Shown here piece after piece: positions 44 to 30,244 of a stretch of DNA of 64,000 nucleotides. Position 1 is the first letter of the stretch; each line of letters starts with the position of its first letter. Source of the stretch: Gammaproteobacteria bacterium. GTDB taxonomy: Bacteria; Pseudomonadota; Gammaproteobacteria; SZUA-229. Made by a program: the position numbers and the translations under genes. The stretch covers positions 1 to 64,000 of the forward strand of contig JASBSR010000015.1 in NCBI GenBank assembly GCA_030148865.1, given 5' to 3'. Below the pieces are notes generated by a model, which had not been told where the DNA came from, searched no databases, and saw only the letters and a program-made list of their open reading frames with translations.

Positions 44-2383
44 TTAAGATGTGAGCGAAGCGAACAAGGTTGGCAGCTTTTCTGGCAGACGATCGACGTT
101 ATCAATAATGGTGTAATTATTCTCTCCAAAAATACGTTTTACGTACGCGTCAGCATGTGGGTCGAGTGTCAGGCAATAGGTTAAAACGCCCGTGCTGTAT
201 AATTCTTCGACGGCCTTTTTGGTGTCATGACGCAAATGCTGCGGATCGCGTTCATCAATATCAGCGGGTTCGCCATCGGTCACCAGTAAAACCAGTTTGC
301 GTCGTTCCGGCTGTTTCAGCAGGTGCTGGCCAGCATGTCTTAAGGCCGCGCCCATGCGTGTCGATAAGCCGCCTTTCATACCAGCGAGACGTGATTTGGT
401 GTCATCATCAAAATGCTGGCTAAAGTCCTTGAAGCGATAATATTGTACGTCGTGACGTCCATCCGAAGCAAAGCCGTGCAGAGCAAATGGGTCTCCGATG
501 CCATTGATGGCGGTAGCGACCAGGGTGGCGGCTTCGCGGGTAAGTTCCAGCACGGTTTTATCTGAGCCGGCCATCGCTTCGTTGGTGGATTCAGACAGAT
601 CCATTAATACTACCACCGCGAGGTCACGACTCTTGAGCACGTTGCGCATTGTAATGCGTGGATTCGGTTGTTCGCCCATGCGGATGGAAATCATGGCATC
701 GACCGCAGCATTGAGATCGATTTCGTCACCGTCTTCCATATTACGCACACGCTGTACGCCTTCAGGGGTTAACAGGTCGATGATTTGTTTGATGCGGTGC
801 GCAATAGGCTTATATTGAGTCAGGATTTCATTGATGTCATCCGGATCACCTTTGGGTTGACGGCGCTCGTACACGGTGGCCCAGTCGGGGCGGTGTAACT
901 GAATCTGGTAATCCCATTCCTGATAATGATACGGATCGGACACTGGCTCCTTACCCCACATTTCATTAAAACTGAGCGTTTTGTCAGTGAGGTCATCCTC
1001 GTAGGGGCGTAGCTCGGTTGAGCAGGTCCAGATTTCCTGGGCGTCATCTCCCGCAAGTTCGCAGTCAATTTCATTGATCATTTCCATCAGGCTGACAGTT
1101 TTGCGAACCTGACGCATGCTGGCGGGTATGTACGCCGTACCTGTATCCCAGTTGAACTCTTCGAATTCCCAGACATAACGATTGTCATCGCGATAGGGAA
1201 TGCGAATACGTTCGAGTATACGCAGGCTGGGTACGGCTTTGCGTGTCGAGAATAAATTGAATAATTCCAGGCCTTTATGCCAGGAGAACTGATTATCGTC
1301 CTGTTTGTCAGCAATGTTTTCGTGAAAGCTGGCGACCAGGCTATTAATTTCTGTATCGTCAGAACTGACACTGTCGTCGAGCAGCATCAGTGCCACATGC
1401 TCCAGCATGGGCAGTGCGGGATGTGCCGCCTGTTCGTCAACTTGTTGTGCTAACAAAGAGCGCCATAGTTTTTTCAGGCCTGGAAAATCTTTTGTTGCCT
1501 TGTATTCGATGCGGGCGTCTTCCAGTAAGCCAATGAAAAACATTTGCGCCGGGCTGAGTTGTTCAGCGGAGATTGGCGCTGTGGAATAGCACATGTGTGC
1601 AGCCATGTGCGCAGCAGTCGCACGGTACAGTTCGAGACCGGGAATGCCTTCGATGTCGTCGACGGCATCCGGCATATGTAAAATTCGATTTTCGATATAA
1701 GGTCGAAAATCTGTGTAATCGGCCCCGGTGGGGCGCAGGAAAAAATTGCGTGCCCATAATGCGCGCAGATAAAAATTAAGCTTACGCTGCACTTTGATGA
1801 ACAAAACACCGCGGCGTTCTTTTTGTAGCATGGCTTTGGAGTCAGCGGACTCCAGATTGAAGTATGCTGTCAGATTATTAAAGTCACGACGGTAAGCCTG
1901 GGCGCCAAACTGGGCCCAACGCCGCAGACCGCTCAAGGTTAATTTTGATAATAGATCATCCATGTGATTCAACATGGGTCGCAGGCCACGTGCCGCAGTC
2001 GATGCTAGCTGATGGATGAAAGTGAGGTAGCCACGCAGCAGTTCAGCGTCGCCGAGGTTACGTGCTGCAGAGGGCAGGCTGCTAAATAGTAGAGAAATAA
2101 CTTCACCCGAAGTCATCGATGATAATTTCATCGCCGCCGTGAGGCAGTCAGGAATAATGTCTTCGCCGCACTCTTTCACCACCTGTGGCATTTCCTGCAA
2201 GTAGGTAATCACGACATCGCTACCGCGTCCCAGTTTGCATAGCGCCTTAGCGCCATCCATATAGGTTTGCAGGCCGGTGGGTGACATGATGCGCGCAGCG
2301 TCCTGAAAGGTGGCTTCCAGTACGGTACGCACAGCAGGTGCCTGTGCAAGAAATTCTTCGTAATCTTCGAGTTTAATACTCAT
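44..2383 (-). CDS. cbbO: RuBisCO activation protein CbbO (VWA domain)
   Basis: A 779-residue protein, the usual size for CbbO. The C-terminal ~190 residues form a von Willebrand factor A domain with a MIDAS motif (DLSES and a later TDGEP). The N-terminal two thirds match the CbbO/NorD type. In this family CbbO binds RuBisCO through the VWA domain and works with the hexameric AAA+ CbbQ motor to remove inhibitory sugar phosphates from inactive form I enzyme. It is the last gene of the cbbL-cbbS-small gene-cbbQ-cbbO operon, and an inverted repeat separates it from cbbQ, which may lower its expression relative to cbbLS. Family assignment is firm; the activase role is from family knowledge. Confidence 0.93.
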   Translation of the reverse strand: MSIKLEDYEEFLAQAPAVRTVLEATFQDAARIMSPTGLQTYMDGAKALCKLGRGSDVVITYLQEMPQVVKECGEDIIPDCLTAAMKLSSMTSGEVISLLFSSLPSAARNLGDAELLRGYLTFIHQLASTAARGLRPMLNHMDDLLSKLTLSGLRRWAQFGAQAYRRDFNNLTAYFNLESADSKAMLQKERRGVLFIKVQRKLNFYLRALWARNFFLRPTGADYTDFRPYIENRILHMPDAVDDIEGIPGLELYRATAAHMAAHMCYSTAPISAEQLSPAQMFFIGLLEDARIEYKATKDFPGLKKLWRSLLAQQVDEQAAHPALPMLEHVALMLLDDSVSSDDTEINSLVASFHENIADKQDDNQFSWHKGLELFNLFSTRKAVPSLRILERIRIPYRDDNRYVWEFEEFNWDTGTAYIPASMRQVRKTVSLMEMINEIDCELAGDDAQEIWTCSTELRPYEDDLTDKTLSFNEMWGKEPVSDPYHYQEWDYQIQLHRPDWATVYERRQPKGDPDDINEILTQYKPIAHRIKQIIDLLTPEGVQRVRNMEDGDEIDLNAAVDAMISIRMGEQPNPRITMRNVLKSRDLAVVVLMDLSESTNEAMAGSDKTVLELTREAATLVATAINGIGDPFALHGFASDGRHDVQYYRFKDFSQHFDDDTKSRLAGMKGGLSTRMGAALRHAGQHLLKQPERRKLVLLVTDGEPADIDERDPQHLRHDTKKAVEELYSTGVLTYCLTLDPHADAYVKRIFGENNYTIIDNVDRLPEKLPTLFASLTS

Positions 2384-2412
2384 GATCTTGTCTTGTTTGA
2401 CTAAAAGATAAA

Positions 2413-2518
2413 GTCCGCAAATGGATGCAAATAAACGCTAATATTTTCTGCCGAATCCAGGACCCGGTTACTGAAAAAGATTTTTCTTTTATTTGCGTTC
2501 ATTAGCGGACGCCAATAC
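2413..2518. repeat. inverted-repeat element between cbbQ and cbbO
   Basis: The left arm (about 2413-2437, beginning GTCCGCAAATGG) is imperfectly complementary to the right arm (about 2486-2513, ending TTAGCGGAC). It belongs to the same family as the elements at 3413, 40694 and 43330. Because it sits inside a co-directional operon it would be transcribed and could fold into a long hairpin between cbbQ and cbbO. Confidence 0.65.
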
Positions 2519-2527
2519 TTTTAATAT

Positions 2528-3343
2528 TTAACCGAAAAATGTCTGTACTGCGGCATCCAGGGTGTCGCGCATGTCCGGGTCATCGGTCAATGGTGTCACC
2601 ATGGTCATGCTGCAGGCGGCTTTGGGATCGACGCCCTTGTTGATCAGCTGACCTGCGTATACCAGCAGACGCGTTGAAATCCCTTCGTCCAGGCCGTGCC
2701 CCTTCAGGTTGCGCGCACGATGCGAGATTTGCACCAGTTTTTCGGCGATGGCCTTGTCGACACCAGATTCTTTGGCAACAATCGCCACTTCAATGTCTTC
2801 TGTTGGGTAATCAAAGTCGAGAGCACCAAAACGTTGTTTGGTGGATTGTTTAAGATCTTTCATCAAGCTCTGATAACCGGGGTTGTACGAAATGACCAGC
2901 TGGAAATCTTTGTGAGCTTCTACCAGTTCGCCTTTTTTATCCAGCGGCAGAGTGCGACGGTGATCGGTCAGCGGGTGAATCACCACAGTGGTGTCCTGAC
3001 GTGCTTCGACGACTTCGTCGAGATAACATATGGCACCGATACGCGCGGCAGTGGTCAGTGGCCCGTCCTGCCATTTGGTGCCGTCTTTGTCTAACAAAAA
3101 GCGGCCAACCAGATCTGATGCGGTCATGTCCTCGTTGCAGGCGACAGTGATCAGTGGTCTGCCCAGTTTCCAGGCCATGTATTCGACAAAACGAGATTTA
3201 CCGCAACCGGTGGGGCCTTTTAACATCATCGGCATGCGCGCGTTGTAGGCGGCTTCGTATAGCGCAACTTCATTGCCAACCAGCTCATAATACGGTTCGT
3301 TCTTAACGATGTATTGTTTTGGATCTACAGTGTTATCAGACAT
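2528..3343 (-). CDS. cbbQ: RuBisCO activation AAA+ ATPase CbbQ
   Basis: A MoxR-type AAA+ ATPase of about 271 residues when started at the ATG at 3343, which has an AAGG ribosome site 7 bases upstream; an upstream in-frame extension to 3379 is less likely. The Walker A motif GPTGCGKS lies at residues 43-50 and the Walker B is CYLDEV. CbbQ and CbbO form a complex that remodels inhibited form I RuBisCO using ATP. The gene lies between the small cbb protein and cbbO, flanked on both sides by inverted-repeat elements. Confidence 0.94.
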
Positions 3344-3412
3344 GGTATACCTTTTTTCATTAAGTTGATTTTGTTTCAAAACAAGGCTTCTATAAATTAA
3401 AAACTTTATATA

Positions 3413-3522
3413 TCCACAGATGAACGCGGATGAACGCAGATAAAAAAACTACAACAAATACACCTTGTGTTGAAGCAAGAACAGCAAAACTAAATTAGTT
3501 TTATCCGTGTTCATCTGTGGAC
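3413..3522. repeat. inverted-repeat element upstream of cbbQ
   Basis: The left arm (3413-3445) starts TCCACAGATGAACGCGGATG and the right arm (3499-3522) is its near reverse complement ending CATCTGTGGA. It lies between the small cbb gene and cbbQ. Arms of the same sequence occur at 40694-40899 and 43330-43436. Confidence 0.75.
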
Positions 3523-3544
3523 CATTAATTTTTACGTATCGTTT

Positions 3545-3856
3545 TTATACTTCGTCTTCGGTTTCCTGTTCACCGCTCCAGCCGGCAGCGCGCGCTGTTT
3601 CGACAGCGGCATTGTGGATTTTCTGGTGACGTTGAAACAGGTCTTCCGGTAAATGGCTCACCAGGCAGCCGTACTTGTCCCACTCGGCGTTCACTTTTTG
3701 CAGCAATGCATCGACGCCGGCAAAGTTCCAGCCTTCGCAGGTTTCAGTTTCGGGGATCAGGCCAAATACCCAGGCATCACGCACAATCTTGCCTATGGTG
3801 GTCATACCACCATTGACGTCATTGTTAATGCCGACATATTTATCTGGTTTCGCCAT
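3545..3856 (-). CDS. small conserved-looking cbb operon protein (CbbN candidate)
   Basis: A 103-residue acidic soluble protein with no signal peptide or membrane segment, located 85 bases after cbbS and before cbbQ. It contains DAWVFGLIPE and ETCEGW segments and an acidic tail (GEQETEDEV). Some autotrophs, such as ammonia oxidisers with cbbLSQON operons, carry a small uncharacterised cbbN; whether this is the same family cannot be settled by reading alone. Its operon position suggests a role with RuBisCO or its activation machinery. An intrinsic terminator just upstream would separate its expression from cbbLS. No function can be read from motifs. Confidence 0.75.
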   Translation of the reverse strand: MAKPDKYVGINNDVNGGMTTIGKIVRDAWVFGLIPETETCEGWNFAGVDALLQKVNAEWDKYGCLVSHLPEDLFQRHQKIHNAAVETARAAGWSGEQETEDEV

Positions 3857-3876
3857 AATGTTTTCGTTTCGGAGTT

Positions 3877-3914
3877 AAAAAAGCCCCTGACCGAAATCGT
3901 CCGGGCAGGGGCCT
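3877..3914 (-). terminator. intrinsic terminator after cbbS
   Basis: On the minus strand a GCCCCTG/CAGGGGC stem is followed by six T, 28 bases beyond the cbbS stop. It lies inside the operon, so partial read-through would give high cbbLS and lower small gene, cbbQ and cbbO transcript levels. Confidence 0.75.
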
Positions 3915-3941
3915 GATTGTTGTGCTTGTATCAAGCCGTTG

Positions 3942-4301
3942 TTAAACAGCAATACCGCGATACACCACCATGGCCGTACCCGCAGACTGTGCGAAGTTGT
4001 CAAAGCCCAGCAGACGCACGTGGTTCTTCGGGTGAGCTTTATGACAGGCTTCGATTTCAGCCAGAATGGTGTCGACATTGGTTTCGCCAAACATGGGTAG
4101 TTTCCACATGTACCAGTAGTTGCTGATCGCATTTTCTGGCTCTGTGTGTTCAATGCCCGGGTTCCAGCCTTTATCAACGATATACTGGATCTGAGCGCGA
4201 GTCGACTCTTTGCTCAAAGGTGGCAGGTATGAAAAAGTTTCATATTTACGGCTCTGGGCGGCGTCGCTCAGGCTCGAATTGTAATCTTGTACATCACTCA
4301 T
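3942..4301 (-). CDS. cbbS: RuBisCO form I small subunit
   Basis: A 119-residue small subunit with typical form I segments: the ETFSYLPPL start region, [10 protein letters not shown] and HVRLLGFDN. It assembles with CbbL as L8S8 to fix CO2 onto ribulose-1,5-bisphosphate. An AGGAG ribosome site precedes the ATG. It follows cbbL by about 90 bases, the normal order, and is followed by an intrinsic terminator. No carboxysome shell genes follow. Confidence 0.97.
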
Positions 4302-4390
4302 TGTGATTTACTCCTGGTAAGTTTTGCGTGTCGTTAGGTTAAGTCGCTGGTGCTGAGTCGCGCTTGTGTGGCACGACTCAGAAGAGTCAG

Positions 4391-5809
4391 TTACTTGTGA
4401 GCTACGTCCAGCTTGTCAACGGTGTCGAATTCAAATTTGATTTCTTTCCAGGTGTCCATCGCAGCACCCAGTTCCGGGCTGCTCTTGGCAGCTTTGGTCA
4501 GAATATCTTTGCCTTCTTTCTCGATCTCAACACCGGCGTTACGTGCTTCAACACAGGCTTCAACCGCAACACGGTTAGCTGCTGCACCTGCAGCATTACC
4601 CCATGGGTGACCTAATGTGCCGCCACCGAACTGCAGACAGGAGTCGTCACCGAAGATGCTCACCAGCGCAGGCATGTGCCATACGTGAATACCACCCGAT
4701 GCTACCGGGATCACGCCAGGCATTGCGCCCCAGTCCTGATCGAAGAACAGGCCACGTGAACGGTCTTCTTTGATGAATGAATCGCGCATGGTGTCGATCC
4801 AGCCCAGAGTGGCTTCACGGTCGCCTTCCAGTTTGCCCACGACAGTACCCGAATGCAGATGGTCGCCACCCGAGAGGCGCAGAACCTTGGTGAGAACACG
4901 GAAGTGAATGCCATGGTGCGGGTTGCGATCGAGCACGGCGTGCATGGCACGGTGAATGTGCAACAGCATGCCATTGTTCTGACACCATTGTGCCAGTTGA
5001 GTATTCGCTGACAGACCGCCGGTTAAGTAATCGTGCATGATGATCGGCGCGCCGATTTCTTTGGCGTATTCAGCACGACGCATCATTTCGTCAGATGTGG
5101 GTGCTGTGACGTTCAGGTAGTGACCTTTACGCTCGCCGGTTTCGGCTTCGGCTTTGTGAATGGCTTCCATCACGAAGTCAAAACGATGACGCCAGCGCAT
5201 AAACGGCTGCGAGTTAACGTTTTCGTCGTCTTTGGTGAAATCGAGACCACCGCGTAGGCCTTCGTAGCAGGCGCGACCGTAGTTTTTAGCCGACAGACCC
5301 AGTTTAGGTTTAATGGTACAACCCAGCAGAGGGCGGCCATATTTGTTCAGAATGTCGCGTTCAACCTGAATACCCTGTGGCGGGCCATTACAAGTCATAA
5401 CATAAGCAACCGGGAAGCGAATGTCTTCCAGACGCAGTGCGCGCAGAGCTTTAAAGCCGAATACATTACCCACCAGAGAAGTCAGTACGTTGACTACCGA
5501 GCCTTCTTCGAACAGGTCGATGGGGTAAGCGACAAAGGCATAGAAACAGGTGTCATCGCCAGGCACGTCTTCGATCGCGTAAGCACGACCTTTGTAGTAG
5601 TCCAGATCGGTCAGCAGATCGGTCCAAACCGTGGTCCAGGTACCAGTGGACGATTCAGCGGCAACAGCGGCTGCGACTTCTTCGCGAGGTACGCCATCCT
5701 GTGGGGTGATCTTGAAACAGGCCAGAATATCAGTTTCTTTTGGCGTGTAATCGGGCATCCAGTAAGTTTCGCGGTATTGTTTTACACCCGCGTTATAAGT
5801 TTTAGCCAT
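4391..5809 (-). CDS. cbbL: RuBisCO form IA large subunit
   Basis: A 472-residue large subunit. The start at 5809 is chosen because GGAGG lies 8 bases upstream and the length fits; an in-frame ATG at 5827 would add six residues. Key residues are visible: the substrate/catalytic lysine in [10 protein letters not shown], the carbamylated lysine in [14 protein letters not shown], the HIHRAMHAV histidine and the loop-6 lysine in [13 protein letters not shown]. It catalyses the carboxylation step of the Calvin cycle. The company of cbbQ/cbbO without carboxysome genes fits the form IA-q arrangement. It is transcribed divergently from cbbR. Confidence 0.98.
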
Positions 5810-5877
5810 GTTCTTTGCCTCCATCAAGCAAACAATTTTTCAAATTCAGTTGTACAACAGTCTTGAGTGAGCCAAGC

Positions 5878-7798: not shown

Positions 7799-8422
7799 TT
7801 ACCAGCCGGTGATCACCGTGGTACTGAATAGATAGCCTCTGAAATCCATAATCACGCCAGTCGAGGTAATTTCTGTTAGTACAAAATCATCATTCAGTTT
7901 TTCGCCTTCTTCCATAAATCGTCCATTAATCACCACGCTGCGTTGCTGTGGGTTACTGGAATAGACGTGCGCAGAAAAATCCATCGCCGGAATCTGCTGG
8001 CGAATTTCGGCGGGCAGTTCTGAAATATCGACAGCGCGAAAACTGGCGGGCACGGATTCTACTGGTCGAGGTTCGACTTTGGCGGCAGGTGTGGGTTCAG
8101 GCTCGACACTGGCTGGCGGTGTGGCAACCATGGTATGGGTTTGTGTAAAAGTTTCGCGATGTACGTTTGCAGCAGGCGGGCTTGTGCTAGTCGCTGACAC
8201 CTTGTCGACTTCGATGAGCGGTGCTGGTGCCTGCCGGTGGAAAATAAAATACAGCAGCGCTGCAAAATTGAGCATGACCGCCACCACCAGTATCCATGGC
8301 CAGCGACTGCGTTTCTCTCTGTGGTAATTCAAACTGGATGAATGCATGGTTTGAATACCAGGTGCGGTGCCGTGTCCGCGTTCCTGTTCTGATTTTTTTA
8401 ATGCCTCCAGGATATAAGACAT
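7799..8422 (-). CDS. GspB/ExeB-type general secretion accessory protein
   Basis: A 207-residue inner-membrane protein. It starts with MSYILEALKKSEQER, the typical GspB N-terminus, has one membrane segment near residues 43-62, then a Pro-rich periplasmic linker and a C-terminal GspB domain (VVINGRFMEEGEKL). The start at 8422 is one base after the stop of the ExeA-like gene, so the two are coupled. In type II secretion ExeA/ExeB help insert the secretin ring through peptidoglycan. No other gsp genes lie in the window, so the pair is detached from the main cluster or serves another machine. Confidence 0.85.
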   Translation of the reverse strand: MSYILEALKKSEQERGHGTAPGIQTMHSSSLNYHREKRSRWPWILVVAVMLNFAALLYFIFHRQAPAPLIEVDKVSATSTSPPAANVHRETFTQTHTMVATPPASVEPEPTPAAKVEPRPVESVPASFRAVDISELPAEIRQQIPAMDFSAHVYSSNPQQRSVVINGRFMEEGEKLNDDFVLTEITSTGVIMDFRGYLFSTTVITGW

Positions 8423-8423
8423 A

Positions 8424-12258
<3,835 letters not shown>

Positions 12259-14270: not shown

Positions 14271-17200
14271 ATGGCTAAAGAAGCACGGAATTCAATTCAG
14301 CTGGATTTTCAGGCGGTTTTCGACGCCAGTCTTGATGCCGGTTTTATTCACGACTCTAAGGGTCGCATTCTCACCGCTAACCGAACTGCTGTAGCGCGTT
14401 ACGGTTATAACCTCGAAGAACTCAAGCTAATGCAGATTTCTGACCTCGCAACACCAGAGCTGCGAGCCAGGGTACCCAAAAAACTAATCGACTTACCAAA
14501 AACAGGTGACATTTTTGAATGGGCGCACCAGTGCAAGGATGGCACTAAAATATCGGTAGAGGTTTTTGCCCAGCCAGTTGTTTTTAATGGTGGTCGTGTT
14601 GTGCTGGCAAGTGTGCGTGACATTTCTCAGCGCAAAAAACTTGAGTCAGAACTGCAGAGCAAGCAGCATTTTCTGGAACATATCCTCGATACTGAGCCAG
14701 GTACAGTCTATATCTATGACCTGATGGAGCAGTGTAATGTCTATGTTAACCGGCACTGGCTCACGGCATTCGGTTACTCACCGGAAGAAATGCAGGCCAT
14801 GGGCGTTGATGTGGTCAGGCTTTTTCACCCGGACGATCTGACAGCAATTAAGGCGAGTCATGAGGCGTGGAGGCGGGGCTCGATGAACGAAATCCGCGTT
14901 ATCGAATATCGTGTCCGCGATAAACAGGGTGAATGGCACTGGTTAATGAGTCGGGAAACTCCATTTAGTTTTGATGGCAGCGGCCAGGTCAGTCAGATTC
15001 TCGGGATTGCGAATGACATCACTGTTCGCAAGCAGGTAGAAAGTGATCGTGATCTGTTTGTTTCACTGGCCAACAATAGTAAAGAGTTTATTGCTATCGC
15101 AGACCTTGATCTTGAGCCAATGTATTTGAATAGAGCTGCACTGGAACTGGTAGGTCTTCCCGATCTTGAAACAGCGCTGAAGCTCAAAGGCACAGACTTT
15201 TTTTTCCCGGAGGACAGAGCACTCATTGTGAACGAATTCTTACCGCAGGTATTACGCCAGGGCGGTAGCGAAGTTGAAACTCGGTTTCGGCATTTTGAGA
15301 CCGGTGCGGCTATCTGGATACTCTGTAATGTGTTTGCTGTTCATAATACAAAAGGTCAGGTCGCGGGCTGGGCAACTGTGAGTCGTGATATCACCGAACG
15401 CAGACATGCTGAGATGCTGCTGGAGGGGCAGAGGCAGGTGCTGGAAATGATTGCGACGGGTAGCTCTTTGGCGAAGATATTAACTCAATTGATGCTGTTG
15501 ATCGAAGCGCAATCCCCCGGCATGCTGGGTTCGATACTTTTGCTCGATGTGGATGGTACTCATGTGCGCCATGGTGCAGCACCCAGTTTGCCAGCGGAGT
15601 ATATTGCCGCTGTGGATGGGCAGGCGATTGGCCCCGTTGCGGGTTCCTGTGGTACAGCCGCCTATCGCAAGGAGCAGGTATTCGTAGAAGACATCGCCTC
15701 CGATCCGCTCTGGGAAAACTACAGAGCAATAGCGCTGCCGCATGGGTTGCGAGCCTGCTGGTCGACCCCGATGCTTGATGAACACGGGCAGGTACTCGGC
15801 ACTTTTGCAATGTATTATAAAGAACCGAAGCTGCCCGACCCCGAGCATCTACAGCTGATTGATACTACGGTTCAGGCTGCGGTCATCGCTATCAACCGGC
15901 ATCAGTCGGAACAAACGCTGCGTCAGAGTGAAGCGCGCTATAGATTGCTGTTTGAGCATGCGCCGAATGGCATTCTTATCGCAGATACCGAAAACTACTA
16001 TCTCGATGCAAATACAAGCGCCTGTCAGATGTTTGGTTATAGCCGTGATGAACTCGTCGGGATGCGGGTTTCAGATACTGCTGTTGAAGATGAAACTCAG
16101 AATTTCGACGCAACTTTGCAGGCAGTCAGGGCGAATACTGAGTACCAGCGTGAGTGGTATTTCCGGCGCAAGGGCGGCACGGTATTTCCGGCGGAAGTGG
16201 TGGTCACGACGATGCCGGATGGTAATCTGCTAGGCGTTATTCGAGATATTACCGAGCGTAAACAAAGCGAAGAGCGTATTACCTATCTGGCAAATTATGA
16301 CGCCCTGACGGGTCTGCCCAATCGCAGCCAGCTCAATGACCATCTCAAGTATGCGATAAGTCTGGCAAAGCGCCACAATGGGCGGCTGGCAGTGATGTTT
16401 ATCGATCTTGACCGCTTCAAAGATATCAATGACACGCTGGGGCACAGCATCGGTGATACATTCCTGATCGAAATGTCAAAACGCCTGCAACTGGTTTTAC
16501 GTGAAGAAGATACTGTGGCTCGTCTTGGGGGCGATGAATTTATTTTGATGCTGCCCAATAGTAATGCGCGTGGGGTTGCGAAGGTCGCTCAAAAGGTGCT
16601 TGAAATTATCTCGGTACCTTGCCGAGTTGAACAGTACGACCTGTCAGTGACGGCGTCGATTGGTATTGCCATTTACCCGGATGATGGCGTTGATCTGGAA
16701 ACGCTTTCAAAGAGTGCTGATACAGCCATGTATCGTGCAAAACAGGAGGGGCGGGATGGCTATCGATTTTTCACCGCCGAGATGCAGGCGCATGCGACAC
16801 GCAGTATGCAGTTGGTGATTGCACTACGCCAGGCTCTGAAGCACGATCAGATGCGGGTGCATTATCAACCGCAAATATCCATTGACGATGGGCGTGTTAT
16901 TGGTGTTGAGGCATTGTTGCGCTGGCAGCATCCCGAGATGGGTGAGGTATCGCCTGCTGAGTTCATTCCGGTTGCAGAGGATAGTGGTCTGATTCTGTCG
17001 ATAGGTGAATGGGTACTAAGTACTGCTGTACGACAGCTCAAACAGTGGATGAATATGGGTTGTGCGCCAATAGTTGTTGCGGTCAATCTTTCAGCCATTC
17101 AGTTTCGTCACCCGAGTTTGCCGGAAATGGTAACGCGAATACTCGAAGCGGAGCAGCTGTCGCCAGAGTTTCTTGAGCTGGAGCTGACCGAGGGCGTTGC

Positions 17201-17573
17201 CATGTATGACCCGAAAGCGGCGATTGAAATCATGAACACTCTGCATGAGCTCGGGATCCGCATGTCGATAGATGATTTCGGTACGGGGTACTCTTCGCTG
17301 AATTATCTGAAAAAATTCAAAGTATATAAATTAAAAGTTGACCAGTCTTTTGTGTACGACATTAATACAGATATGGAAGATAGAGCAATTGTCGCGGCCA
17401 TTATCGGCATGTCGAAAAACCTGGGTTTACGGACGATTGCGGAAGGTGTTGAGACAGCCGAACAACTTGCATATCTGCGTGAACAGGGTTGTGATGAAGC
17501 GCAAGGATATTACTATAGTAAGCCATTACCAGCAGAACAGTTAGATGCGATGCTGTCGAACAATTCAGTTTAA
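14271..17573 (+). CDS. multi-PAS/GAF GGDEF-EAL c-di-GMP protein
   Basis: An 1100-residue signalling protein without membrane segments. It has an N-terminal series of three PAS domains with PAC motifs, a GAF domain around residues 385-545, a further PAS, then GGDEF (RLGGDEF preceded by an REED inhibitory-site motif) and EAL domains. The EAL part retains EALLRW, NLS, ELTEG, DDFGTGYSSL, KLKVDQSF, EGVET and the late Gln, so both domains look catalytically competent. It likely makes or degrades c-di-GMP in response to cytoplasmic signals such as redox state or ligands; the signal cannot be read from sequence. Confidence 0.93.
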   Translation: MAKEARNSIQLDFQAVFDASLDAGFIHDSKGRILTANRTAVARYGYNLEELKLMQISDLATPELRARVPKKLIDLPKTGDIFEWAHQCKDGTKISVEVFAQPVVFNGGRVVLASVRDISQRKKLESELQSKQHFLEHILDTEPGTVYIYDLMEQCNVYVNRHWLTAFGYSPEEMQAMGVDVVRLFHPDDLTAIKASHEAWRRGSMNEIRVIEYRVRDKQGEWHWLMSRETPFSFDGSGQVSQILGIANDITVRKQVESDRDLFVSLANNSKEFIAIADLDLEPMYLNRAALELVGLPDLETALKLKGTDFFFPEDRALIVNEFLPQVLRQGGSEVETRFRHFETGAAIWILCNVFAVHNTKGQVAGWATVSRDITERRHAEMLLEGQRQVLEMIATGSSLAKILTQLMLLIEAQSPGMLGSILLLDVDGTHVRHGAAPSLPAEYIAAVDGQAIGPVAGSCGTAAYRKEQVFVEDIASDPLWENYRAIALPHGLRACWSTPMLDEHGQVLGTFAMYYKEPKLPDPEHLQLIDTTVQAAVIAINRHQSEQTLRQSEARYRLLFEHAPNGILIADTENYYLDANTSACQMFGYSRDELVGMRVSDTAVEDETQNFDATLQAVRANTEYQREWYFRRKGGTVFPAEVVVTTMPDGNLLGVIRDITERKQSEERITYLANYDALTGLPNRSQLNDHLKYAISLAKRHNGRLAVMFIDLDRFKDINDTLGHSIGDTFLIEMSKRLQLVLREEDTVARLGGDEFILMLPNSNARGVAKVAQKVLEIISVPCRVEQYDLSVTASIGIAIYPDDGVDLETLSKSADTAMYRAKQEGRDGYRFFTAEMQAHATRSMQLVIALRQALKHDQMRVHYQPQISIDDGRVIGVEALLRWQHPEMGEVSPAEFIPVAEDSGLILSIGEWVLSTAVRQLKQWMNMGCAPIVVAVNLSAIQFRHPSLPEMVTRILEAEQLSPEFLELELTEGVAMYDPKAAIEIMNTLHELGIRMSIDDFGTGYSSLNYLKKFKVYKLKVDQSFVYDINTDMEDRAIVAAIIGMSKNLGLRTIAEGVETAEQLAYLREQGCDEAQGYYYSKPLPAEQLDAMLSNNSV

Positions 17574-19432: not shown

Positions 19433-20014
19433 CCGCGCAGGCGACGTTTGGTGTTGCGCAGACGATGGTTGGTGCGGGTGATGTAGCCATATTGAGTGTC
19501 ATCAGCGAAATTAATGCAGGGGCGGCACCCATGAGCCAGTAGGCATAGCGTTTCATCAGGGTGAGCCCCGACGTTTCGTGCAGTGCCCCGTTGGGCTAAT
19601 CTTTAAACTGCGCATCAGGCCGGTGACCGGGGAATAGTTCAGCTGGCACTGTGCGTGGCGAGCGCTGCCGGAGCTGGCGGCGATAGTGTGGTGATGGAGG
19701 TGATGCGCCATCGGCAGGCATTTTTGCTATATGAACTTTGTCTAGTCTGTTTGTCGATTAACTTTACATGTTAAAAAACTCTAACTAATTGAACGATAAG
19801 TGTATTTCTTAAATACGTAAATTTTTAGATGATTTTCCTGTCAGTGTGTCGCATATCTCCGATTACTACTATATATATAAGTGTTTGATATTCAACATAT
19901 TGACATGATATACGGTAATCGCGCTGTGTCGAATATAATCGGAATTACTTACACCTTTAGAAATTCTTTGGTGAAATAGACTCTAACTTACTAGTTTTTA
20001 TATAGATAATATGT

Positions 20015-20030
20015 TGGCACTATTTTTGTA
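20015..20030 (+). promoter_or_regulatory. sigma-54 promoter of PEP-CTERM gene 1
   Basis: TGGCAC-TATTT-TTGTA fits the -24/-12 consensus (TGGCAC-N5-TTGCA) with one change in the -12 element. It lies 60 bases upstream of the ATG at 20091. The other two PEP-CTERM genes have equivalent sequences. Confidence 0.65.
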
Positions 20031-20090
20031 TGTGTAATGGTAGTCTGGTTTTTAAATGTTAAATAAATGTCACAAAGGAGTTTTACCATC

Positions 20091-20654
20091 ATGAAGGTTT
20101 CTAAATTGTTAGTGGCTGGCGTGTTATCACTGTCGGCTGGCGCGGCATCTGCGTCCACTGTCATGTTTCCGACAGACGGTGATGTCAATTTCTATGTGGA
20201 CAGTGCCTTTATTGCAAGTGGTTATAGCCTGGCTGTTTTTGATGATAGCGAAGCTGTGGCTGCCGGTAGTATGATTGTTTCCAGCACGGGTTCGCTGGAT
20301 GTAATGTTCGCCGGTCCGTTCTTTGGTGGCACATACGGCGGTGTGATCGACTTCCTCGGTAATGTAGGTCCTGGTGGCGCGTATCAGGCATCCAATCAAT
20401 CAACCCTGTTCAACTTTGCTGGCGCCAACGACCACTTCATCGTCGGTCTTTCCGCTGATGGTGGTGCTTCCTGGTTTGCAGATATCGGTTCTGATCAGGG
20501 TGCTGCCAATTCTCAGCTGCTGACGTTTGCCATGCAGCAGTCAACTTTTGTGGTTGATGTGCAGACGGTACCTGCGGTGCCAGTGCCTGCAGCAGTATGG
20601 CTGTTCGGTTCAGGTCTACTGGGCATGGTCGGGATTGCACGTCGTCGCGCTTAA
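20091..20654 (+). CDS. VPLPA/PEP-CTERM sorted protein 1
   Basis: A 187-residue secreted protein with an N-terminal signal peptide (LLVAGVLSLSAGAASAS) and a C-terminal sorting signal: VPVPAAVWLFGSGLLGM followed by an Arg-rich end (ARRRA). Such tails are recognised by exosortase and lost on export. The mature part is small, Gly/Ser/Ala-rich and predicted beta-rich, with no catalytic motif. An AAAGGAG site precedes the ATG at 20091. It shares the mature N-terminal theme (TVMFP, then SLAVFDDSEA) with the two paralogues at 22182 and 23438. Exosortase is not in the window. Confidence 0.9.
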   Translation: MKVSKLLVAGVLSLSAGAASASTVMFPTDGDVNFYVDSAFIASGYSLAVFDDSEAVAAGSMIVSSTGSLDVMFAGPFFGGTYGGVIDFLGNVGPGGAYQASNQSTLFNFAGANDHFIVGLSADGGASWFADIGSDQGAANSQLLTFAMQQSTFVVDVQTVPAVPVPAAVWLFGSGLLGMVGIARRRA

Positions 20655-20676
20655 TTTCGACGACACCATCTCATTT

Positions 20677-20711
20677 AAAAAAACAGCAGTCTTCGGACTG
20701 CTGTTTTTTTG
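20677..20711 (+). terminator. intrinsic terminator after PEP-CTERM gene 1
   Basis: ACAGCAGTC-TTCG-GACTGCTGT stem with a UUCG-type loop, flanked by A and T runs, 23 bases after the stop codon. The symmetric A/T runs could also work on the other strand. Confidence 0.9.
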
Positions 20712-20764
20712 TTTAAATATTCTCCGGGTGTGGCCCTGGGTGGCAGCACTGATAAAATGACCTG

Positions 20765-21736
20765 ATGCTAACCAGAACTGTATCTGTGGCGCCGATGATG
20801 GGCTGGACCGATCGTCACGCGCGTTTTTTTCTCCGTCTGATGACACAACAGGCCCTGCTCTACACCGAGATGGTGACCAGTGGTGCGGTGCTGCACGGCG
20901 ATCATAATTATTTGTTGAAATATCATGCTGCTGAACATCCGTTGGCGCTGCAACTCGGTGGCAGTGATCCGGCTGAACTGGCTGAGTGCACGCAAATCGC
21001 AGAACAGTGGGGCTTCGATGAAGTCAATCTCAATGTCGGCTGTCCGAGCGATCGGGTGCAGTCCGGCCGTTTTGGGGCCTGCCTGATGGCCGAGCCCGCG
21101 CTGGTGGCTGACTGCATCGCAGCGATGAATGCACGGGTTGAAATTCCAGTGACGGTGAAGTGCCGTATCGGTATTGATGATATGGATGACTATATCGGAC
21201 TCGAGCACTTTGTCGAAACGGTGGCCGCCGCCGGCTGCGATACGTTTATTGTGCATGCTCGCAAGGCCTGGCTGAAAGGCCTGAGTCCAAAACAAAATCG
21301 GGAAATCCCGCCACTGCGCTATGAGGATGTGTACCGACTTAAAGCCAGGCATCCCGACCTGACGATTGTAATCAATGGCGGAGTTAAAACGCAGGAGCAG
21401 ATTGGACAGCACCTGCAGCAGCTTGATGGCGTGATGCTGGGGCGCGAGGCTTATCACAATCCTTTCATTCTGGCCGAGGTCGATCAGCGTTATTATGCAG
21501 CTACTGCGGATATTGTCAGTCGAGAACAGGTGGTGGCACAGCTGCTGGAATATGTCGACGCAGAACTGCTGGCAGGAACCCGCCTGCATTCGATTACTCG
21601 ACACCTGCATGGCCTGTTTGCCGGTTGCGCGGGAGCGCGAAGCTGGCGGCGCGAATTGAGCACCAGTGCGCACTGCGACGATGCTGATAGCGCCATCATA
21701 GCGCGTGCCCTGCGTGGTATACGCACCTGTTTATAA
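20765..21736 (+). CDS. dusA: tRNA-dihydrouridine(20/20a) synthase DusA
   Basis: A 323-residue flavoenzyme with the Dus signature: APMMGWTDRHARFF near the N-terminus, LNVGCPSDRVQSG containing the catalytic cysteine, VKCRIGIDD, and an NGGVKT phosphate-binding segment. It reduces uridine 20/20a in the tRNA D-loop using FMN and NADPH. The FGACLM sequence and length fit DusA rather than DusB or DusC. It separates the first PEP-CTERM gene from the other two and is unrelated to them in function. Confidence 0.95.
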   Translation: MLTRTVSVAPMMGWTDRHARFFLRLMTQQALLYTEMVTSGAVLHGDHNYLLKYHAAEHPLALQLGGSDPAELAECTQIAEQWGFDEVNLNVGCPSDRVQSGRFGACLMAEPALVADCIAAMNARVEIPVTVKCRIGIDDMDDYIGLEHFVETVAAAGCDTFIVHARKAWLKGLSPKQNREIPPLRYEDVYRLKARHPDLTIVINGGVKTQEQIGQHLQQLDGVMLGREAYHNPFILAEVDQRYYAATADIVSREQVVAQLLEYVDAELLAGTRLHSITRHLHGLFAGCAGARSWRRELSTSAHCDDADSAIIARALRGIRTCL

Positions 21737-21945
21737 AATCAGCACGGGTGGTTTTTTTAAATAATGAGAGTGCTGGAAAGGCCATATTTGTGTCGGCTAA
21801 CACTATATAAAAGCGTTTGATTGATCACCCGGTTTTTTTCATTTTTTCGGTGCTGGTTATCAGGCCATGGTCTTAGTGACTGATTCAGCTATGTTTTTCA
21901 GGCATAACAGGTCTGCCGGTAGGCCCCTGCCCGACAAATTATTAA

Positions 21946-21972
21946 ACTGGCTGGCCAGGGCCAGTATTTTTT
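21946..21972 (+). terminator. weak terminator-like hairpin
   Basis: ACTGGC/GCCAGT six-base stem with an 8-base loop followed by ATTTTTT, 210 bases after dusA. It may end the dusA transcript. Confidence 0.3.
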
Positions 21973-22049
21973 GTGCGTCGTTTCTGAACAAATGCCTTTC
22001 ACGCCGCCCTTTTTGCATTGTGCACGCTCGTATTTCGAGTAAACAAAGC

Positions 22050-22065
22050 TGGCATAAACATTGCT
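22050..22065 (+). promoter_or_regulatory. sigma-54 promoter of PEP-CTERM gene 2
   Basis: TGGCAT-AAACA-TTGCT is a good -24/-12 match with the invariant GG and GC ten bases apart. It lies about 115 bases upstream of the start codon of the second PEP-CTERM gene. Confidence 0.65.
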
Positions 22066-22181
22066 GCTGTATTAGCAGCCTTCCTGAATGTTTTTGAGAC
22101 GGGGAGATACTGATGGCGGCATGCCACCGAGCCTAAATGTTGATGACTCGTAAAGATGAATCGTAAATAAGGAGATAAATG

Positions 22182-22727
22182 ATGAAAATTATACAACTGT
22201 TAGCGGTATCTGTCCTCGCCATTAGTTCTACAGTGGTGGGTGCGACGGTATGGATACCAGATATCAATACTTCAACTGGCGACTATCAGGCAATATCATT
22301 TGTGAGTTTTGGTGTTTCTTCTGCCAAATACGATCTGGTGTTATTCGATGCGGGCAGTATGGCGGCAATCGAGCCGTCGATGACAAGCCTGACTCTCGCT
22401 GATCTAAGTGGAATCGTTGAAATCTCAGCCAATGCGGTTTCGCCGCCTTATCTGGCGACTTATGGTTCAGATATCGCCACCCTGGGTGCAAGCGCCATGT
22501 TTGAGCTAGCCCTATATAACGCCACTGCTGATGCATTTACGTTTGTCAGTGATTACAAAGCTATTATTCCAGGTAACTGGTACTCAATATCGTTTGGTGA
22601 TATTGCAGGCGAAATCATGGGTGTGGATCTGGCGCCCGTTCCTGTCCCGGCGACGGTCTGGTTGTTAGGCTCGGGTCTGATTGGTCTGGTCGCGGTGGCG
22701 CGTCGTCGAACCGATGCTGTGACCTAG
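22182..22727 (+). CDS. VPLPA/PEP-CTERM sorted protein 2
   Basis: A 181-residue secreted protein with signal peptide (LLAVSVLAISSTVVGA) and a C-terminal VPVPATVWLLGSGLIGL helix plus ARRR. Unlike its paralogues it carries five extra residues (TDAVT) after the arginines. The mature N-terminus (TVWIPD) and the YDLVLFDAGS segment match the other two copies. The second of two adjacent ATGs has the better spacing to GGAG at 22171. A structural or matrix role after exosortase processing is inferred; no enzyme motif is visible. Confidence 0.88.
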   Translation: MKIIQLLAVSVLAISSTVVGATVWIPDINTSTGDYQAISFVSFGVSSAKYDLVLFDAGSMAAIEPSMTSLTLADLSGIVEISANAVSPPYLATYGSDIATLGASAMFELALYNATADAFTFVSDYKAIIPGNWYSISFGDIAGEIMGVDLAPVPVPATVWLLGSGLIGLVAVARRRTDAVT

Positions 22728-23437
22728 ATGCTAGATGTCGGCAGCATTGCTGCACAGATTTGGCGAAGAAGGTGTTGATTACACCTCGGGATCGAATGTC
22801 AGCATGATGCCATGCTTGCGTCGTTTTTTTGTGTAGATCGTTTTAGAGTCGGTCGAACAGGTGTTTTCTGCGGGTGTGCGGGGACAAAAGTCATTTTATG
22901 TGGGCCGTTCTAAAACGGCCTGTGGCGCCCTGCGTCCAGATAACCGCGTCGCTGGAGTTTACGTTTGGCCCTCATTTTGTGGATAAAGTTGATGGTATGG
23001 TTATTTAGTTGTGCGATATTAAGTCGGTAATATTTACATTGTTATAAATTAATTAACCATATGTTTTTATTGGTTATTACCGAGTTTTACGGGATATTTT
23101 TGTGGTTTTCTCTAATACTATGTCGAAATCATGTCTGATGAAATTCAGATAACATATTGATTATTGGTGCTCATGACACCTGATACACAATCTTAGTGCT
23201 TGATATTGTCGGATAAATATACAGTTTTTTCGGCCCAATTTTTCCTGTTTTGGTGTGTTATTGATAACTTACTGAAAATATTAAGTATTTATTATTTGTG
23301 GGGTATTGGCACAATATTTGTACCAGGGTATGTGAAATTCCTATGTGGATAAAGCAAGTGCCCGAAGATTCAAGGACGTCGGTGGTTTATTGGAGCCTCC
23401 GATTTATCATATGGTTTTTAACAAAGGTACATAAATG
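22728..23437. other. 710-base AT-rich gap upstream of PEP-CTERM gene 3
   Basis: No gene is supported. Visible items are a 6-base AGCATG/CATGCT hairpin at 22801 followed by a T run, a perfect GGCCGTT/AACGGCC hairpin near 22903-22920, a long AT-rich segment, and a sigma-54-type promoter at 23307. Confidence 0.6.
23307..23322 (+). promoter_or_regulatory. sigma-54 promoter of PEP-CTERM gene 3
   Basis: TGGCAC-AATAT-TTGTA matches the -24/-12 pattern and is nearly the same as the promoter of gene 1 (20015). The start codon is about 115 bases downstream, the same distance as in gene 2. Confidence 0.65.
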
Positions 23438-23989
23438 ATGAAAATTTTTCACTTCTTGACTATTACAGCTCTGGGTATGTACTCGGTTGCAGCCAGTGCC
23501 GCAACCGTGTGGTTGCCCACGAATCTGGATACAGACATACTTCAGTTCGATTTCTACGGCGTGAGCACCAATGGGGGCGATCTGGCGCTATTTGATGAGG
23601 CCGATTTTGCCGGCACAGCATTGACGATTGGCAGCACTGGTGGTCAGGTGACATTCACTGCCAGTGGTGCTGACTGGACGGCAACGTTTTATGACAGCAC
23701 CAATACTGCCGGCGGTTCTATCACGCTGTCAGGCGATAAAAAATTCACCCTCGGCATGTCCTGGGATGCTGGCACAACCTGGTACGCAGATTCATCCTAC
23801 GTGCCAACTGGTGGCTCCCCGGATACTTACGAAATTACTTTCACCGGTAACAAGCCGCCTGGTTATGATTTCCCTATCCAGGGCAAGACCATCGCAGTTG
23901 ATGTGCAGCCGGTGCCTGTTCCAGCAGCGGTGTGGCTGTTTGGTACCGGCCTGATAGGTCTGGTAGGCGTTGCCCGTCGTCGCACTTAA
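23438..23989 (+). CDS. VPLPA/PEP-CTERM sorted protein 3
   Basis: A 183-residue secreted protein. The signal peptide (FLTITALGMYSVAASAA) is followed by TVWLP and LALFDEADF, the paralogue signature, then a Gly/Thr-rich beta-type body and a C-terminal VPVPAAVWLFGTGLIGL helix ending ARRRT. Start codons at 23435 and 23438 are both possible. It is followed by a strong terminator, so it is a single-gene unit. Function is unknown; export and exosortase processing are inferred from the tail. Confidence 0.9.
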   Translation: MKIFHFLTITALGMYSVAASAATVWLPTNLDTDILQFDFYGVSTNGGDLALFDEADFAGTALTIGSTGGQVTFTASGADWTATFYDSTNTAGGSITLSGDKKFTLGMSWDAGTTWYADSSYVPTGGSPDTYEITFTGNKPPGYDFPIQGKTIAVDVQPVPVPAAVWLFGTGLIGLVGVARRRT

Positions 23990-24004: not shown

Positions 24005-24036
24005 AAAAAAGCGGCAGCTTCGGCTGCCGTTTTTTT
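24005..24036 (+). terminator. intrinsic terminator after PEP-CTERM gene 3
   Basis: CGGCAGC-TTCG-GCTGCCG stem followed by seven T, 16 bases after the stop. The preceding A run makes it possibly bidirectional with the convergent DUF3187 gene. Confidence 0.9.
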
Positions 24037-27719: not shown

Positions 27720-29228
27720 ATGAGCCCCAAAGCCCCAAAGCCGACAGCACAAACAGAGACTCCACAACCACTGCGCAAACGTGTGGCTATGGTGCGTGAA
27801 GTCCTCGCCGATCTCGATACCCCGCTGAGCACCTACCTCAAGCTCGCCAATGCACCGTATTCCTATTTGTTTGAATCGGTGCACGGTGGTGAAAAATGGG
27901 GTCGTTATTCGATCATCGGTCTGCCCTGTCGCGAACGCCTGAAAGTATTTAACCGCAACATCATCATCGAAAAAGATGACGAAGTGGTTGAGCGTTTGCA
28001 GGTTGATGACCCACTCGAATTTATCAGCGAATTTCAGGCGCGCTATCAGGTGCAGGAACACGATGGTCTGCCCAGATTCACCGGTGGCCTGGTCGGTTAT
28101 TTTGGATACGAGACGATACGGTATATCGAACCACGTCTCGATAGTGACAATAAGCCTGATCCTTTAGGTACGCCCGATATTCTATTAATGGTGTCGGAAG
28201 AAGTTGTGGTCTTCGACAATCTTTCCGGCCAGCTCTATATTATTGTGCACGTCGCTGCCGACGATGATAAAGCTGCGGCTGCCGGCGAAAAACGCTTACA
28301 GACAATCGAGCACAAACTACGTAACAAAGTCATCGAACCGCCCGCGCACGAAATCCAGCGCGTCAAAGAATCGGACTTTGTCTCCGGCTTTACTGAGGAT
28401 GGTTATAAAGCCGCTGTTGCCAGGGCACGCGAATATATTATCGATGGCGATGTCATGCAGGTGGTGCTGTCGCAACGGCTGACGGTTCCTTTTAGTGCAC
28501 GACCATTAGAGCTCTATCGCGCGCTGCGCAACCTCAATCCGTCACCGTATATGTATTATCTCGATCTCGGGGATCATCATGTGGTGGGTTCATCACCGGA
28601 AATTCTGGTGCGTCTGGAAGACAATCAGGTGACCGTGCGCCCAATTGCTGGCACCCGTCCGCGTGGCAAGGATGAAGCTACAGATCGCGCGCTGGAAACA
28701 GAACTACTCGCCGACCCGAAAGAACTGGCCGAGCATTTAATGCTGATCGACCTCGGTCGTAATGATGCTGGTCGTGTCAGTGAAATCGGCAGTGTCAAGC
28801 TCACCGAAAAAATGCTGGTCGAACGTTATTCGCATGTCATGCATATTGTGTCCAATGTGATCGGTGAATTAAAACCCGGACAGAATGCGATGGACGTGTT
28901 GCGCGCTACCTTTCCGGCAGGCACTGTGAGCGGTGCGCCCAAAATTCGTGCCATGGAAATCATCAACCAACTGGAACCGGTGAAGCGCGGGATTTATTCC
29001 GGCGCGGTGGGGTATTTATCGTGGAATGGCAACATGGACACCGCGATCGCGATTCGTACTGCTGTGATCAAAGATGGCCGGCTCTCAATCCAGGCCGGTG
29101 CCGGGGTTGTCTACGATTCAGTTCCACAGAACGAATGGGACGAAACCATGAACAAGGGGCGTGCCATTTTTCGCGCGGTCAGTAAGGCCGAGGCCGGGCT
29201 CGATAATCCCTTGCAGGAACACCGATGA
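27720..29228 (+). CDS. trpE: anthranilate synthase component I
   Basis: A 502-residue chorismate-utilising enzyme. The N-terminal domain has the regulatory [15 protein letters not shown] stretch associated with Trp feedback binding; the C-terminal catalytic domain has [31 protein letters not shown] and [18 protein letters not shown]. It converts chorismate and ammonia to anthranilate with TrpG. It is preceded by a candidate Trp-rich leader. Its stop overlaps the start of the TIGR03790 gene by four bases, so that gene is in the trp operon. Confidence 0.97.
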
Positions 29229-30244
29229 AAGCCGGTGCTGTCGTCATCCTGCTCGGCTGGGCTCTGAGCCAGAATGTGTTTGCCGTTGGCGCAAACCAGC
29301 TCGCCGTGGTCTACAACAAAGCCGACCCGGAGAGCCGTGCACTCGCTGTTTATTATCAGCAGCAACGCCATATTCCGCAAAAAAACATGATCGCGATAGA
29401 GTTGCCACTGGGGCAGGCGAGCATCAATCGCCGGGAATTTGCCCGCGTTTACGCCGAAGTGCAGGCAGCCACGCCCGCAGTGGTTGAGTTTTATGCACTG
29501 GCCTGGAGCAAACCCTATCGTGCTGCCTGCATGTCGATCACCAGTGCTTTTGCGTTTGGTTTTGATACAAAATATTGTGCCCAGGGCTGTGCGGCGACAG
29601 CACCCAGTGAGTATTTTAATAGCGACAGCCAGCATCCGTATGCCGATTTTAAAATTCGCCCGGCGATGTTGCTTGCCGGTGGTTCGCTGCAACAGGTGAA
29701 AGTGACAATCGACCGCGGCGTGCGTGCTGATTATAGTTTGCCGAAGGCGACAGCATATTTATTGAGTACCAGTGACCGTGCGCGCAACGCACGTGCTTTT
29801 ATTTATCCGGAAGTGGTGGTGCAGCTTGGTAATCGCCTGCCCGTGCAGATACTTAAATTAGATACGCTAAAAAATAAACCTGATGTGATGTTCTACTTTA
29901 CGGGCCTGAAATCGGTCGATGAAATCACCAGCAATACTTTTGTTGCAGGCGCGATTGCTGATCATCTGACGTCCACGGGCGGTAACTTATTCGGCGGCAG
30001 TCAGATGAGTATTTTGCGCTGGCTGGACGCTGGTGCGACAGCGAGTTATGGCACGGTGGTCGAACCCTGCGCGTTCCCGCAAAAATTCCCCAACCCCGGC
30101 ATTGTGATTGACCGTTATACTCGCGGTGAAAATTTAATCGAAGCCTACTGGAAAAGTGTGCAATGGCCGGGTCAGGGCGTGTTCGTCGGCGAGCCGCTGG
30201 CAGCACCTTACCAGCATGCTGGTAAAGTCAGGCACGAGCCATAG
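29225..30244 (+). CDS. TIGR03790-family secreted protein within the trp operon
   Basis: A 339-residue protein with a signal peptide ([18 protein letters not shown]). The N-terminal [13 protein letters not shown] and [14 protein letters not shown] segments and the central [11 protein letters not shown] and C-terminal [16 protein letters not shown] match the TIGR03790 family of uncharacterised proteins. No function is known. The ATG overlaps the trpE stop as ATGA, so translation is coupled, and trpG begins 38 bases later. It is the only gene in this operon without an obvious link to tryptophan. Confidence 0.8.

Follow-up and report, generated by a model that had tools for sequence, protein, structure and literature searches.

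We analysed a 64,000-nucleotide (nt) stretch of DNA, referred to here as the window, which comes from contig C43 of the 2.68 Mb, 93% complete assembly of an uncultured, marine-type gammaproteobacterium. The window carries three genes for VPLPA-CTERM proteins, numbered 1 to 3 in the following, each of which lies behind a sigma-54-type promoter (Table 1). A genome scan with TIGR03370 (cut-off 25.35 bits) detected the VPLPA-CTERM signal at the end of all three proteins with 28.6-36.6 bits; scanned as a protein, gene 1 scored 24.8 bits, just below the cut-off. At the C-terminus, the proteins have the VPLPA-type motif, transmembrane helix and arginine-rich end that characterise VPLPA-/PEP-CTERM proteins; their N-termini are signal-like, and a long non-coding stretch precedes each gene. 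After removal of the C-terminal signal, proteins 2 and 3 share 32% identity over 106 amino acids (aa), and proteins 1 and 3 share 26% over 136 aa. Since this weak identity persists beyond the C-terminal signal, we regard the genes as distant paralogues. A homologue 47% identical to protein 3 is encoded in the related genome G013, and a search of a genome collection with protein 3 returned no relative. The structure predicted for protein 3 is all-beta with a C-terminal helix and of low confidence, the mean predicted local distance difference test (pLDDT) value of 55 being too poor for a fold search.

Table 1. Features of the VPLPA-CTERM region in window coordinates; boxes and promoters are predicted.
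Feature	Position	Strand	Evidence
Distal PrsR-type box, gene 1, GTTTGTCGATTAACTTTACATG, 244 nt upstream of sigma-54 site	19749..19770	+	score 17.5, rank 2 of 127,956
Proximal PrsR-type box, gene 1, TATAATCGGAATTACTTACACC, weak, 59 nt upstream of sigma-54 site	19934..19955	+	score 4.1, shuffle p 0.13
Sigma-54-type promoter, gene 1, TGGCACTATTTTTGTA, -24 TGGCAC, -12 TTGTA	20015..20030	+	exact match; matrix 15.0, 0/100 shuffles
Gene 1, VPLPA-CTERM protein, 187 aa, signal peptide and C-terminal VPVPAAVWLFGSGLLG..RRRA	20091..20654	+	TIGR03370 over cut-off; PEP-CTERM models
Probable terminator after gene 1, stem-loop AACAGCAGTC-TTCG-GACTGCTGTT with T tail	20678..20713	+	read by eye from sequence; not listed by hairpin scan
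dusA, tRNA dihydrouridine synthase, outside the regulon	20765..21736	+	NF008774, 522.6 bits
Possible decayed distal box, gene 2, TTGTGTCGGCTAACACTATATA, 240 nt upstream of sigma-54 site	21788..21809	+	score 5.3
Sigma-54-type promoter, gene 2, TGGCATAAACATTGCT, -24 TGGCAT, -12 TTGCT	22050..22065	+	exact match; matrix 16.0, shuffle p 0.01
Gene 2, VPLPA-CTERM protein, 182 aa	22179..22727	+	TIGR03370, 36.4 bits
Distal PrsR-type box, gene 3, TTAAGTCGGTAATATTTACATT, 266 nt upstream of sigma-54 site	23019..23040	+	score 18.9, rank 1 of 127,956
Proximal PrsR-type box, gene 3, TATTGTCGGATAAATATACAGT, 81 nt upstream of sigma-54 site, 185 bp from distal box	23204..23225	+	score 13.6, rank 4, shuffle p 0.005
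Sigma-54-type promoter, gene 3, TGGCACAATATTTGTA, -24 TGGCAC, -12 TTGTA	23307..23322	+	exact match; matrix 15.0, 0/100 shuffles
Gene 3, VPLPA-CTERM protein, 184 aa, with a terminator-like hairpin behind it (24011-24027)	23435..23989	+	TIGR03370, 36.6 bits; hairpin scan

A sequence-only reading of the window had reported TGGCA(C/T)-N5-TTG(C/T)(A/T) upstream of all three genes and had taken it as a shared sigma-54 promoter. We searched for exact matches to the same pattern, TGGCAY-N5-TTGYW, with the reversed pattern as the control, and recovered it at 20015, 22050 and 23307, 60-113 nt upstream of the start codons; a weight matrix scored all three sites highly (Table 1), with the caveats that the -24 element of site 2 reads TGGCAT and that sites 1 and 3 have GT at -12. 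The window holds only four exact matches. The fourth, at 29151, is antisense in trpE with no box (see below) at the right place, and we took it as chance. With one mismatch allowed, 16 matches were found in the window versus 13.0 in shuffles; thus, the count within the window proves nothing by itself, and it is the placement of the sites that carries weight. Both strands of the whole genome together hold 46 exact matches, compared with 9 for the reversed pattern. Such an excess is expected of a genome that uses RpoN, and RpoN is indeed encoded here (TIGR02395, 498.5 bits). Given only 46 exact matches genome-wide, about 0.02 would be expected upstream of the eight VPLPA genes of the genome (8 x 245 nt), and 3 were found.

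The sequence-only reading had proposed enrichment upstream of other PEP-CTERM genes as a check, and this check turned out positive. For this genome and its relatives, 105 VPLPA genes were taken together, and the matrix was scored over the stretch from 15 to 260 nt upstream of each, again with a reversed control. A score of at least 10.6 was reached by six of the eight genes of this genome (three in the window, one on contig C9 and two on C34), and no such site was found for the VPLPA genes on C22 and C37. Across the full set, 45 of 105 genes scored at least 11; the reversed matrix yielded none and the opposite strand 6.

Upstream of the sigma-54 site, the related genomes carry a second element, TGTCGG-N5-TTTACA, which the sequence-only reading had not seen. 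Because it matches "motif 1" in the cis-element description of Haft et al. (2006; PMC1569441), we call it the predicted PrsR box. A 22-nt box model was trained on PrsR-positive genomes only, with the genome of the window left out, and was run over 127,956 window positions; its two best hits were the distal boxes of genes 3 and 1. Among held-out promoters from genomes without a detected PrsR, 23 of 26 had a box at a shuffle p of 0.05 or below. A box scoring at least 10 within 400 nt accompanied 37 of the 42 genes with a sigma-54 score of at least 11 and only 2 of the 36 scoring below 8. Of the other exact sigma-54-like sites in this genome, about 30 were examined, and none had a box (best score 7.1). 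Therefore, the box marks PEP-CTERM genes and not sigma-54 sites in general.

The distance between box and promoter is regular. In 45 promoters from this genome and its relatives, the spacers fell at 59-65, 70-74, 81-86, 92-94 and 104-106 nt, with a Rayleigh R of 0.66 at 11 base pairs (bp) that none of 5000 smoothed resamples reached; the period was picked among a few candidates, and each spacer belongs to a best-scoring box above threshold, so that the exact probability is soft, but the clustering can be seen at a glance. In these predicted promoters, the spacing tracks the DNA helix (60, 71, 82, 93 and 105 nt). Furthermore, the boxes often come in pairs of direct repeats, with a typical separation that differs from genome to genome within the family. 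Pairs in the genome of the window are separated by 185, 185, 187, 199 and 200 bp (five of eight genes, at L001, L004, L006 and twice at L007, gene 1 being included with its weak proximal box), whereas the separations are 125-126 bp in G011, 135-147 bp in three genes of G019 and mostly 116-122 bp in G022. Both the helical spacing and the separation of paired boxes appear to be unpublished; we know of no description.

The three genes and at least three other VPLPA-CTERM genes outside the window probably belong to a PEP-CTERM-box/sigma-54 regulon with a PrsR-type activator whose trans-acting parts were left unassembled. As judged from the predicted promoters, the regulon is well evidenced for genes 1 and 3 and likely for gene 2. 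The promoter elements and their enrichment, the boxes, the spacing rule, the C-terminal signal and RpoN, all read from sequence, are consistent with the following mechanism. A PrsK-type sensor kinase would phosphorylate PrsR, and this NtrC-type activator, or one like it, would bind one or two TGTCGG-N5-TTTACA boxes upstream of the -24/-12 promoter. From a fixed face of the helix, it would contact RpoN-RNA polymerase and open the complex bound at -24/-12. The switch would turn on small exported proteins whose VPLPA motif may be recognised by XrtD, as encoded in relatives, and the processed proteins would end up in or near the envelope or the exopolysaccharide layer. As far as the literature searched goes, PrsR is not known to have been characterised biochemically; helical phasing and paired boxes provide a concrete mechanistic prediction for it.

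Several observations at the promoters weigh against this interpretation. The -12 element is GT instead of the canonical GC at sites 1 and 3; the proximal box of gene 1 does not reach significance by itself, though it lies at the commonest spacing; and gene 2 has no convincing box, with nothing usable at 50-110 nt and a best score of 5.3 at 240 nt. The non-canonical -12 elements, and the lack of an excess of the one-mismatch pattern over shuffles in the window, would fit the view that the sigma-54-like sites are chance and that the genes use ordinary promoters. We consider this very improbable, because independent conserved boxes stand at regular spacing, the enrichment is genome- and family-wide with zero in the reversed control, and sigma-70-like matches in the region merely equal the shuffle mean (7 vs 7.0). 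It is possible, if rather doubtful, that the PrsR-box regulon comprises only genes 1 and 3, with the sigma-54 site of gene 2 being under a different activator or part of a decaying promoter, as its poor box would suggest. However, with a score of 16.0 this site outranks those of genes 1 and 3, and the weak box of gene 2 at 240 nt nearly coincides in distance with the strong distal box of gene 1 at 244 nt, as expected of a paralogue with a decayed site. Thus, gene 2 is probably in the regulon, its activator site being weak or lost.

The missing trans-acting parts count against the regulon as well. A search for exosortase, PrsK and PrsR, which the sequence-only reading had suggested, found none of them in the 93%-complete assembly. 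For the exosortase, PF09721 gave nothing, TIGR04178 nothing credible, and the XrtD of G004 used as query nothing. The best PrsR candidate reached 383.5 bits (cut-off 502.6; true PrsR of relatives, 670-714), and the best PrsK candidate 80 bits (cut-off 300). The genome encodes six complete NtrC-type activators, all without the PrsR recognition helix VSRPTLYDLIKKL, and a surrogate activator among these six was rejected on this ground. The idea of a dedicated regulon, put forward by the sequence-only reading, is partly supported: the shared promoter, its enrichment, the presence of RpoN and the predicted PrsR box, which mostly occurs twice, speak for it, and it falls short in the trans-acting parts and the box of gene 2.

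In relatives, XrtD or XrtA, prsK, prsR and a PrsT-like gene share one exopolysaccharide cluster. XrtD (TIGR04152) is the VPLPA-CTERM-specific exosortase; it is present in G024 (566 bits), in one cluster with PrsK (719 bits), PrsR (688 bits) and a PrsT-like protein, and in G004, recognised by homology and clustered with prsK/prsR, but not found in the genome of the window. The family survey covered 25 genomes, 24 with VPLPA genes, 13 with an exosortase, 14 with PrsR and 11 with both. Eight have several VPLPA genes but neither a detectable exosortase nor PrsR (G000, G002, G003, G005, G013, G014, G018 and G023). In G015, prsK and XrtD lie on separate short contigs and PrsR was not found, which indicates that the cluster breaks in assemblies. 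In G008 (100% complete), contig C18 (L285, L289) carries a contiguous cluster of prsR, prsK, prsT-like, ATP sulfurylase/APS kinase, tyrosine kinase, chain length, porin and export genes; the WecA-like/XrtD pair located behind this cluster in G024 is absent. The VPLPA genes of G008 lack good sigma-54 sites, and G008 may therefore be losing the system. Contig C3 of the assembly studied here starts beside septation-protein and YciI genes, which adjoin prsR in G008, and it breaks off at that point in an apparent IS3-type transposase start (read from the translation) behind a tRNA-Leu. That this break marks the place of the missing cluster is suggestive only; the cluster is located elsewhere in other relatives. 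Contig C20 carries at its start a HipA-like gene, like the one that flanks the G008 cluster; it was rejected as evidence of synteny, as the next G008 gene (RapA) is not there.

An assembly gap is the likeliest cause of the missing prsK, prsR and exosortase genes, though not proven, because these parts sit in one cluster in relatives and a single gap would remove them all. The promoters and boxes could also be real in a lineage that has truly lost PrsK/PrsR and the exosortase, another sigma-54 activator reading the boxes and the proteins being anchored without exosortase. The eight genomes lacking both components, several of them estimated to be 94-100% complete, would agree with such a loss, and the contiguous G008 cluster without the WecA-like/XrtD pair speaks against a pure artefact. 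We nevertheless judge it unlikely: the boxes stay near the PrsR consensus in genomes without a detected PrsR, none of the six NtrC-type activators has the recognition helix, the cluster splits in the G015 assembly, and C3 ends at the apparent transposase start near the septation/YciI genes. Similarly, we think it improbable that a branch of the family keeps the full regulon after losing PrsK/PrsR and every exosortase, with a different activator and with a different unknown enzyme, or none, sorting the VPLPA proteins. Genomes in which boxes occur while activator and exosortase went undetected are either a warning that assemblies can lose exopolysaccharide clusters or a real exception to the exosortase rule.

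The surroundings agree with the sequence-only reading in that the genes form separate transcription units, with dusA (NF008774 cut-off 269 bits) between genes 1 and 2. PEP-CTERM genes beside dusA were not found in the dusA neighbourhoods of named metagenome-assembled genomes. A possible cyclic-di-GMP enzyme of 1100 aa, read by eye as a multi-PAS/GAF GGDEF-EAL protein, is encoded upstream of the PEP-CTERM genes (14271-17573), and a type II secretion pair (GspB-like and GspA/ExeA-like) at 7799-10307. A TIGR03790 protein of unknown function (29225-30244) is flanked by trpE and by a glutamine amidotransferase of the anthranilate synthase-like kind. At 44-5824, the window encodes the large and small subunits of RuBisCO, CbbQ and a VWA protein of CbbO type, and the organism is therefore probably an autotroph. 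The predicted PEP-CTERM switch would also govern genes of the VPLPA-CTERM type in this uncultured and apparently autotrophic gammaproteobacterium, and the explicit box TGTCGG-N5-TTTACA comes with a spacing rule that is open to a simple promoter assay.

The link between PEP-CTERM genes and RpoN is already known (Haft et al., 2006, cis-element description, PMC1569441; Xia et al., 2023, PMC9850573). Xia et al. mapped an RpoN-dependent transcription start of a PEP-CTERM gene, pepA of Aquincola tertiaricarbonis RN12, which has a TGGCAC -24 element, RpoN1 dependence and a predicted upstream enhancer. Proteins 1 and 2 of the window match the flocculation PepA model NF033554 weakly (39 and 37 bits, far below its cut-off of 80 bits). 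Haft et al. described the PEP-CTERM sigma-54 cis-element along with PrsK, PrsR and PrsT, and proposed PrsR as the binder of motif 1, a 17-nt element ending in TTTACA that stands 62.8 +/- 10.6 nt before the sigma-54 motif 2 of proteobacterial PEP-CTERM genes; repetition of motif 1 is mentioned there, with no spacing given in the section consulted. Compared with that description, the present genes differ in that they are VPLPA-CTERM genes of an uncultured gammaproteobacterial family, with usually paired boxes and with regulators not found in the assembly. Within the 32-92 nt of a Haft-type motif 1 spacer, gene 3 has a box (81 nt, 13.6) and gene 1 a weak one (59 nt, 4.1), its strong box being at 244 nt; gene 2 has none. 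A Haft-type motif 2 with GG at -24 precedes each solitary PEP-CTERM gene, the GC at -12 being confined to gene 2, with GT in genes 1 and 3. The spacers, 62.8 nt on average in that description, are here most often 59-65 or 70-74 nt. The overall order is alike: a motif 1 ending in TTTACA and sometimes repeated, then the -24/-12 motif 2, then a solitary PEP-CTERM gene. Thus, at the level of predicted promoters, the known PEP-CTERM-box/sigma-54 regulon now takes in VPLPA genes from an uncultured family.

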